Origin: Fabrea salina
Taxonomy: Eukaryota; Ciliophora; Heterotrichea; Heterotrichida; Fabreidae
Length of the DNA: 64,000 nt
Direction of reading: 5' to 3'
Assembly: GCA_022984795.1 (NCBI GenBank)
Contig: JALIHJ010000011.1
Span: 248,001 to 312,000, forward strand
The position numbers and the translations under genes were made by a program. Below the pieces are notes generated by a model that was given only the letters and a program-made list of their open reading frames with translations, was not told the origin of the DNA and ran no database searches. Positions 44,510 to 47,008 of this stretch are shown here, in pieces; the stretch's first letter is position 1; each line of letters starts with the position of its first letter.

Positions 44510-45646
44510 ATGGATGAATATGCTACTGCTTGCAGAGGTTTAGAAAACCATATAGGAGCCAACAACTGCTTTTTAAACGTAGTGTTGCAGTCGCTCTGGC
44601 ACTTGCCTTCTTTTAGGGACCAATTCAAAAAAGACTCTTGCCACCACAGTGCTTCAAGTTCCTTCTGTTTGTTTTGTGAACTCCAGTCCCTCTATATCCA
44701 GTATCAGTACAGCGAATCTCCTGTTTTGAACGTAGAGAAAGTCCGCATAGCTTTGGAAGCAACTGCCTCCAACACCAAGGCTTTCAATGCCAACTCAACT
44801 GGCGACGCTGTAGAGGCTTTTGAAGCTATTCTGAATTACTTGCATCAACAAAAAAGTTCTGAAAACTGCAACTGCACAACCCACAAAGTGTTTGGTTTCA
44901 AACTCAACCAAGTTTTGCACTGTGCCTGCAGAAGTTCCTCTGTAAGCAACTCAACTCAGTACCTGCTGCGACTTTACATCACTCAAATGATGGAAATCTC
45001 CCTGAGCAACCCTGAATTGATGTTGGACGAACTGATAGGAAGAGCAGTTTCTGAAGACTCAGCTTGCAAACTCTGCAGTACTTCTAGGGTAGAAAACCAC
45101 TGTGTAAAGTTCCCTAAAGTAAGGACTAGTTAGAACCTAGCAGTGTCACTGACCTGGGCAGACCACACTCCAGAAACCATTGAGTGGTTAGTGAACATGA
45201 TATCTCCAGTGTTGTTTGTCACCCACATTTTCGAGGCTTCAGAGTGCAAGCACCCTAGGTTCATTCTGCGAGGAATGATTTGCTTTACCCTGGGCCACTA
45301 CATTGCTTTTTTCTTCAGCATCAGACGCAATGTTTGGATTCAGTTCGACGACACCCAAGTGAAGTACATAAAGTCTTGGGAAAGTGTCTGCGATAAAATG
45401 CTCAGAGGCAAAATAGCCCCCACAGTGCTTTTTTATGAAAGCGCTAAGTCCCTAGACTCCTACAAAGATACACAAATTCTAGACTGCATAGGGACTCAAA
45501 AAACCAACAGACTCATGGAACCTGAAGTGTACTTTGAAAGCTACGAAGACAGTGAAGTAGTTAACTTAGGCGGGCTTGTTTGGGGAGCGCGGCTTCGTGA
45601 AAGAGAAGCCTACAAGAAAAACATGCACAGGTGCTGTGTTTTCTAA
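44510..45646 (+). CDS. USP53/54-like ubiquitin-specific protease with CaaX-like end
   Basis: 373 aa from exons 44510-45118 and 45134-45646. Removing the 15-nt intron joins FPK to NLAVSLTWADHT in frame. The Cys box is GLENHIGANNCFLNVVLQSLWH with nucleophile C20; the His box is TLGHYIAFFFSIRRNVWIQFDD with H258. The pattern GxxNxxxxNxCFLN..LQ.LWH is closest to USP53/USP54. Both catalytic residues are present, as are Cys pairs of a zinc subdomain (CLFC, CKLC). The chain ends RCCVF, a possible CaaX (CCVF), which would anchor it to membrane, as known for USP32. Confidence 0.9.
45119..45133 (+). other. 15-nt intron (GTAAGGACTAGTTAG)
   Basis: Intron of the USP gene. The unspliced frame stops at its TAG, separating the Cys box from the His box; splicing reunites them. 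A at position 10. Confidence 0.92.
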
Positions 45647-45679
45647 CTAGAATTTAACCAATGACTTAAGTTTAATAAA

Positions 45680-45856
45680 ATGAAGGATAAGGACCAGAAC
45701 CAACAAGGAAGCAACCTTGAAGTTTTGTGTGAATTCGACAACTTTTTCATAGAAATAAAACAAGAACTGAAGGCCAAGCAGCTCCAAGCAGAAAAGCGCT
45801 ACAATTTTGATTTTGAAAAGGAACAGAGTTATAACAATAACCAACTAAAGTATTAA
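45680..45856 (+). CDS. 58-aa Cip/Kip/KRP-like cyclin-dependent kinase inhibitor
   Basis: An ATG-to-TAA frame of 59 codons after the USP gene. Residues 18-23 (EFDNFF) and 38-45 (EKRYNFDF), followed by EKEQSY, match in order and spacing the CDK-inhibitor domain of plant KRPs (E-[ILV]-[DE]-x-FF ... KYNFDF) and the KWNFDF insertion of p27Kip1, which enters the CDK active-site cleft. The upstream cyclin-binding RxLF motif is not seen, so only the kinase-inhibiting part remains. The opposite strand shows a 65-aa frame here, which I regard as its shadow. Such a minimal inhibitor would be unusual. Confidence 0.68.
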   Translation: MKDKDQNQQGSNLEVLCEFDNFFIEIKQELKAKQLQAEKRYNFDFEKEQSYNNNQLKY

Positions 45857-46039
45857 ATTAGTGTTTCCAAAGATTTTCACAGCATTTCTTCCCTTTAAAG
45901 CGCCAAAATCAGATGAATTATTGCGAATGGCTTTAACTTAGCATTTTTGGTTAAGCCTGACCTTCTAGAACACTTGACTAAGTAATTCCTAATTTCTTTA
46001 TAAGGGCTTTCGAACATGATTTTTAAGTTAAGAGCTGCA
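45857..46039. other. 183-bp 3'-3' spacer
   Basis: AT-rich sequence between the convergent CDK-inhibitor and aminotransferase genes. No ORF, repeat or fold stands out. Confidence 0.4.
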
Positions 46040-47008
46040 TTAAGAAAATCTTTCATAGGGAACTGGTTCTGTCAAGTTCTGGTCGAGGTTTCCCGCCAAC
46101 ATAGCTTGTTGAATGTACTTTGTCACTGGACCTACTTCGCCTGTGCCAATACTTTCTCCGTCCCACTCAATTATTCCTTCTACGCGGTCTGCAGAACATT
46201 GGAGCATTTCAACTGCTTTTTTGGCCTCAGAAACGTGGATTTGGCGTTGTTCTACGCCAGAAAGTCTACCTTCTTTAACCAGTTCTTGGGCGTGGTGCAT
46301 GACCCTTTCTATAGTAATCCCGTTGAGTATTTTGTCGAAGGGAGGAGTCACAAGTACTTGCTCTGGAAGTACAAATGCTAAGTTGGCAACGCAACTTTCA
46401 GTGACATAGCCTTCGTCGTCCAACTGCACTCCTAAACGCCCTCCTTTTTCTAGGCTTTCCATTGCACACAAAGCATTCAGTAAGTAGTTAGTGGACTTCA
46501 TTGTTGCAAGGAACTTAGGTTTCAAGGGAACTCCAACTGTGAATTCCTTAAACCCTGCTTCGTAGGGCTTCATGTAATCTGCTTCAGTAACTGCTGCGTA
46601 TAGTGTAGACATTCCAGACGTTGGAACCACTCCTAAACTCCCTGGCCCAGTGCTCATCCAGCACCTAATTTGTGCATTGCGCAACTTAGAAGCCGCTACT
46701 AAGTCCAGTAAAGCTGTCTTCATGTCCTGGGTACTCATAGGAAGCTCAATTCTAGCTTGTTTTGCAGAGGCTTCGAAGCGCCTAAGGTGGCGGTCCATCA
46801 TGATTACGCGTCCTTCAACAATACCAATTACATCAAACACAGAATGCCCTCTGTGGACCATGTGGTCGTCAATAGGGACACTCATAAAGGCAGGGTCAAG
46901 AATGATGCCTCCGAGTCTAGAGTTGTAAAAAGCCTTGATGTACTTAGGGGCTTTATCCTCGAGAGCTGAAAGTATTTCTTCGCTAGAACTGAGAATGCGG
47001 GCCTGCAT
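46040..47008 (-). CDS. Class IV PLP-dependent aminotransferase
   Basis: 322 aa, fold type IV (branched-chain/D-amino-acid aminotransferase family). The PLP Lys is in TMKSTNYLLNALC, the PLP-phosphate binding region is YVTESCVANLAFV (Glu and the Asn), and LNGITIERVM closes the site. The early VHRGHSVFDVIGIVEGRVIMMDRH fits D-alanine transaminase/aminodeoxychorismate-lyase members more than mitochondrial BCAT (length about 320 rather than 380). Likely substrates are D-amino acids or 4-amino-4-deoxychorismate; sequence alone does not decide. No transit peptide. Confidence 0.88.
   Translation of the reverse strand: MQARILSSSEEILSALEDKAPKYIKAFYNSRLGGIILDPAFMSVPIDDHMVHRGHSVFDVIGIVEGRVIMMDRHLRRFEASAKQARIELPMSTQDMKTALLDLVAASKLRNAQIRCWMSTGPGSLGVVPTSGMSTLYAAVTEADYMKPYEAGFKEFTVGVPLKPKFLATMKSTNYLLNALCAMESLEKGGRLGVQLDDEGYVTESCVANLAFVLPEQVLVTPPFDKILNGITIERVMHHAQELVKEGRLSGVEQRQIHVSEAKKAVEMLQCSADRVEGIIEWDGESIGTGEVGPVTKYIQQAMLAGNLDQNLTEPVPYERFS

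Follow-up and report, generated by a model that had tools for sequence, protein, structure and literature searches.

The open reading frame (ORF) at positions 45680-45856 (+ strand) of the window, that is the whole analysed stretch of 64,000 nucleotides from Fabrea salina, raises the question whether a ciliate protein of 58 amino acids can belong to the Cip/Kip/KRP-type inhibitors of cyclin-dependent kinases (CDKs), and whether such a small protein would still act as one. Most of what is known of CDI inhibitors comes from animals and land plants. In a passage of PMC10904545, homologues of KRP and SMR are given as absent from two green algae, Ostreococcus tauri among them. A diatom survey detected no CKI in Phaeodactylum tricornutum, and its table records one CKI, type unstated, for the alga Ostreococcus tauri (PMC2872877). 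Among the papers listed, none was found by title or by the start of the abstract to report CDI or KRP proteins in ciliates, and a paper on regeneration in Stentor (PMC9371601) contains none of the words CDK inhibitor, kip, cyclin-dependent or CDKN.

The analysis points to a protein that probably belongs to a CDI family expanded in this ciliate, ends short of the C-terminus of the domain and would dock on cyclin-CDK. At least eight ciliate members, two of them clearly above the Pfam cut-off, bear on the question whether CDI inhibitors go back to early eukaryotes or arrived by transfer. Furthermore, natural minimal versions of 54-61 amino acids, with and without the last segment, make the inhibiting part of the domain directly testable.

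The open reading frame at 45680-45856

The ORF runs from ATG to TAA in one open frame and encodes MKDKDQNQQGSNLEVLCEFDNFFIEIKQELKAKQLQAEKRYNFDFEKEQSYNNNQLKY (58 residues), in agreement with the free-standing form named in the original prediction. It was annotated as a truncated CDI protein of the Cip/Kip/KRP type on the basis of the Pfam CDI model, paralogues, coding score and start context. The start context TTAAGTTTAATAAA (45666-45679, +), immediately 5' of the ATG, resembles those of the long genes; an A/T-rich stretch (e.g. TTATAA, AATAA) is located at this place in many genes of the window. Among 1309 other ATGs, 1.0% equalled or exceeded the score of TTAAGTTTAATAAA, which was at least as high as that of 64% of 45 long-ORF starts, three of the 48 long ORFs (45197, 47345 and 50923) having been excluded from the model with an ATG that looked internal.

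The coding score, calculated from codon content with the 48 long ORFs of the window as training set, was 0.332 bits per codon (range of the long ORFs 0.127-0.506). This value was attained by one of 47 spurious ORFs (45-80 aa), and it is the highest among the 14 short ORFs (40-120 aa) located outside the long ORFs. By codon adaptation index the ORF was not separated from the spurious ORFs, 23 of the 47 being as high. We regard ORF 45680-45856 as a real gene.

Its start is located 33 bases 3' of the stop of the gene 44510-45646 (+), and the downstream neighbour is an ORF on the opposite strand (46040-47008). The upstream gene consists of two open frames joined across the 15-nt stretch GTAAGGACTAGTTAG at 45119, a supported intron; the start of its product, GLENHIGANNCFLN, presumably resembles ubiquitin-specific proteases. 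Two 15-nt introns were supported in the window by a scan for frame continuation, in which other lengths gave 0-3 introns too, so that 15 nt is not singled out. Both the short gap and the intron of the neighbour would suit an exon of a larger gene, either the upstream gene itself or a gene that carries the C-terminal segment missing here (see below) in a downstream exon. However, with the sole 15-mer GT..AG on the + strand in 45560-46040 the upstream frame still runs into a stop and the frames stay unjoined, and no such 15-mer is present inside the ORF. We consider an exon of a larger gene extremely improbable. A junction to the neighbour by a 15-nt intron, the one length examined, was rejected, no 15-nt GT..AG joining the frames.

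The 48 long ORFs of the window end with TAA (37) or TAG (11), and none of them with TGA (0/48). Among the 83 frames of at least 150 codons bounded by TAA or TAG, 44 are without any TGA. TGA seems to be avoided as a stop in the window.

Relationship to the CDI family

The Pfam model CDI (PF02234) matched the protein with 19.1 bits and an E-value of 0.0014 over profile positions 14-38 of 49. The relatedness to CDI claimed before, and the match proposed as a check by HMM search, were thus recovered, but the curated cut-off of 25 bits was not reached. Out of 24,736 Pfam families CDI was the sole one reported at E<=10, a result limited by the HMMER filters, which discard most weak matches. When the protein was searched against the six frames of the whole genome (18.3-Mb assembly, 103 contigs), it recovered itself and three further ORFs, designated C48 (4.5e-4), C50 (0.015) and C26 (0.028), each of which matches CDI. 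In the genome C48 is the best hit of the window ORF (4.5e-4), and C48 in turn hits the window ORF best (3.9e-4).

With the CDI model as query, eight places were detected in the genome at E<=10. C26 (28.6 bits) and C50 (26.2) were above the cut-off, C25 (26.1) and C35 (25.3) passed it only together with neighbouring matches, and C6:227167 (24.3), C54 (18.9), the window ORF (18.4) and C48 (17.0) were below. Scored as whole proteins, C26 (28.0 bits) and C50 (27.6), both of which were recovered without the CDI model, exceeded the cut-off, and C35 (24.9), C25 (24.4), C6:227167 (23.0), C48 (18.2) and C54 (18.0) were under it. CDI was matched at E<=1 by all eight members. Searches with five single members gave family members only at E<=10 among the best candidates scored, and of 14 control genomes one responded to the CDI model, under the cut-off. 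Altogether, the genome contains at least eight free-standing CDI ORFs of 54-148 aa (54, 58, 61, 84, 95, 104, 140 and 148 aa), each in one open frame, the start codons being our choice. The window ORF is one of this group and no lone micro-inhibitor.

The product is short and highly charged, and its single Pfam E-value is only 0.0014. Furthermore, a profile built from the window ORF, C48, C50 and C26, the members recovered independently of the CDI model, failed to reach p21 or p27 in the PDB at E<=10. These points would fit a chance resemblance, the short ORF being either not translated or the source of an unrelated peptide that is charged and helical. Against it stand the paralogue network across the whole genome, the gene-like start context and a leave-one-out profile of seven members, which scored the protein with 32.7 bits (E 1.8e-8; best of 5000 shuffles 13.7), although this score is not fully independent, as three of the seven profile members had been recovered with the window protein. 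With the same profile the ORF's own fragment was the only one of 1011 window fragments among the six best matches. Chance resemblance is very improbable in our judgement.

No PDB chain was found at E<=10 with the window protein alone. In a search of 177,635 PDB sequences with a profile of all eight members, four of which were chosen via the CDI model, the top five of the 24 listed matches were p21/p27 chains, with E-values of 0.13-0.24 and hence of only 0.13 at best. Homology to accepted CDI members is reached through intermediates, the paralogues C26 and C50 being over the cut-off. Judged from these comparisons, the window protein is very probably a CDI relative.

In the longer members C54, C6:227167, C26 and C25 the S/T-rich tails, too, are weakly similar to one another. 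Short stretches of the types R-S-T-[LM]-S and [EN]-[IL]-P are present in most of these four tails; they are possibly phosphorylation or degradation signals. C54 stops at TGA, which makes its end less certain should TGA not serve as a normal stop here. Relatives were also sought in viral contigs (14 pattern matches) and in bacterial and archaeal genomes (225 pattern matches); none was confirmed in either set, as expected for a ciliate family.

Parts of the protein and comparison with known inhibitors

Residues 18-23, EFDNFF (45731-45748, +), show a loose likeness to motif C of plant KRP and SIM proteins, EIERFF, with three of six residues identical. Across the family, the first F of this stretch is an aromatic F or W in all eight members, and F is found at the second in three of eight. 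It is followed by a charged linker, IEIKQELKAKQLQA (residues 24-37; 45749-45790, +), delimited by the family alignments, in which E25, K27, E29, L30 and K31 are invariant in the four closest members and L30 in all eight. The adjacent EKRYNFDFEKEQ (residues 38-49; 45791-45826, +) is the counterpart of the WNFDF region of p27 in the family alignment and in the profile alignment with p21/p27. It contains the kinase-binding core [YW]-x-[FY]-D-F as YNFDF (residues 41-45), of which Y41, D44 and F45 are invariant in all eight members; together with the start Met and L30 these are the invariant positions of the family (window numbering). The last part, SYNNNQLKY (residues 50-58; 45827-45853, +), stands at the place where six of the eight members have a segment ending with R-[YF]-x-W (RFVW, RFIW, RYEW, RFIW, RFAW and RYQW). 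A single-sequence AlphaFold model, which is weak evidence and uninformative on a partner-bound strand, consists of one helix (residues 4-57, mean pLDDT 85.9) and gives no support for a p27-like strand.

The Y/W-N-F-D-F core is shared with the animal Cip/Kip proteins p21, p27 and p57, and the family profile aligned to p21/p27 from this core through x-W. p27 carries RxLFG, a C-terminal strand and an ATP-site 3-10 helix. In the p27-CDK2-cyclin A complex (1JSU) NFDF is located on the kinase N-lobe, the next strand replaces a kinase strand and the 3-10 helix fills the ATP site. In contrast, the window protein is without cyclin docking by RxLFG, without the C-terminal strand and without the 3-10 helix. 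An N-terminal RxLFG motif was not found in its 58 residues, and the absence of RxLF noted in the original prediction was confirmed. Of the three kinase-contacting parts of p27 only the NFDF part is present; we therefore expect the protein to dock, and to inhibit at the ATP site weakly or not at all.

Plant KRPs have a terminal Y-x-W, which is absent from the window protein. In plant ICK/KRP proteins an EIEEFF-like stretch, a short charged linker and a YNFD core are found in the same order as here. These proteins are also the nearest in spacing, the distance from FF to NFD being 15 residues in the pepper KRP motif KIPTTREIEEFFATAEKQQQRRFIEKYNFDPVNEKPL (excerpt of PMC13408456) and 18 in the window protein. 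The order of EFDNFF and EKRYNFDFEKEQ described before is as in KRPs, but their spacing agrees only approximately. According to passages of the respective papers, plant KRPs have 19-32 kDa (PMC10904545) and a C-terminal conserved domain (PMC9911667), whereas the window protein is almost the domain alone. Motif C is common to plant KRP and SIAMESE and is described there as a putative D-cyclin-binding motif that is maybe not critical for every interaction (PMC10904545, in part). The SIAMESE/SMR proteins are small and carry motif C (EIERFF/EIEDFF) as the KRPs do (excerpts of PMC10904545 and PMC13408456). In the former excerpt SIM binds CDKA;1 via motif A; the NFDF core of the window protein, in contrast, is a CDI feature.

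Both EFDNFF and the core had been assigned to the kinase-binding half of the inhibitors. This holds for the core; EFDNFF resembles motif C and is therefore not simply a part of the kinase-binding half. More likely, the first of the two elements is motif-C-like and the second opens the kinase-binding half. Given this likeness, the window protein may also contact a cyclin.

The window ORF and C48 (54 aa) both end soon after Y-N-F-D-F, without R-[YF]-x-W. A frameshift concealing the missing segment was rejected, as [YF]-x-W is present in none of the three frames, either to 46039 in the window or for about 190 bases past the stop of C48. For 34 aligned codons of the pair a pS of 0.73 and a pN of 0.30 were determined, local alignments favouring conserved stretches; the difference suggests constraint. 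The absence of a conserved C-terminal segment in two of eight members, together with a score of the window protein below the Pfam cut-off, could also indicate a decaying CDI paralogue without its former C-terminus, on the way to a pseudogene and no longer functional. However, the reciprocal-best sister C48 has nearly the same end point, the pN of the core is low compared with a near-saturated pS, and no remnant of the segment is found in the downstream frames of either ORF. Start context and coding score are gene-like as well. Decay is thus regarded as quite improbable.

Predicted action and candidate partners

The last CDI segment, kept by six of the eight members, is missing in the window protein, and its activity as an inhibitor is therefore less certain. 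Of the title CDK inhibitor given to it originally, the family can be retained, and the activity has to be worded with more caution. The proposed relevance to very large cells gained no evidence from these results. The protein more likely than not binds a CDK-cyclin complex; an inhibition of kinase activity by the protein alone is a tentative assumption, somewhat on the doubtful side.

If the truncated family member docks on cyclin-CDK, its motif-C-like start and the helix would lie along the cyclin and the cyclin-kinase cleft, and Y-N-F-D-F would pack on the kinase N-lobe as in the p27-CDK2 structure. As the R-[YF]-x-W strand and the later parts are missing, the first strand of the kinase would not be displaced and the ATP site would not be blocked. 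On one of the CDK-cyclin pairs of the genome the window protein might then inhibit weakly or partially, or compete for docking.

Alternatively, the protein could be an anti-inhibitor, which sits on the cyclin/N-lobe site, does not inhibit, and either shields the kinase from the complete siblings or helps CDK and cyclin to assemble. Two reciprocal-best paralogues have kept YNFDF and the motif-C-like start and are without the last segment, and six complete siblings are available as competitors; short peptides, however, are maybe too weak binders to compete. On the sequences we judge this action rather unlikely. A broader proposal is that the ciliate lineage expanded CDI into micro-proteins, of which a truncated subclass (window ORF and C48) docks without inhibiting and antagonises the complete siblings. 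This appears clearly unlikely; if true, a pair of brake and brake release would be built into one family.

For the preferred reading, docking on cyclin-CDK, candidate partners were examined in the genome. The 18.3-Mb assembly contains 45 Cyclin_N matches, three of which have an internal stop, so that they are not necessarily 45 intact genes. Among the 132 of 451 candidates that were scored, four kinases are 55-64% identical to a fission-yeast cdc2 query, and all four contain P-S-T-A-I-R-E. The cyclins and PSTAIRE CDKs of the genome are possible partners of the window protein.

For so small a genome, 45 Cyclin_N matches are a high number. At least 135 kinase matches were obtained with the CDK query in the genome, 132 of the 451 first-look candidates having been scored. 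On the contig of the window, but outside the window, the CDI ORF C6:227167 is located about 4 kb from the cyclin match C6:231071. A frame of 703 aa at C55:10543-12654 (+) matched F-box-like (1.3e-9), kinase (5.8e-50), Cyclin_N (2.2e-35) and Cyclin_C (3e-10) models and is, by its predicted domains, an F-box-CDK-cyclin fusion. In its kinase part HRD is changed to HRN and DFG to DLT, and the lysine of VALKK is probably R; this part looks like a pseudokinase.
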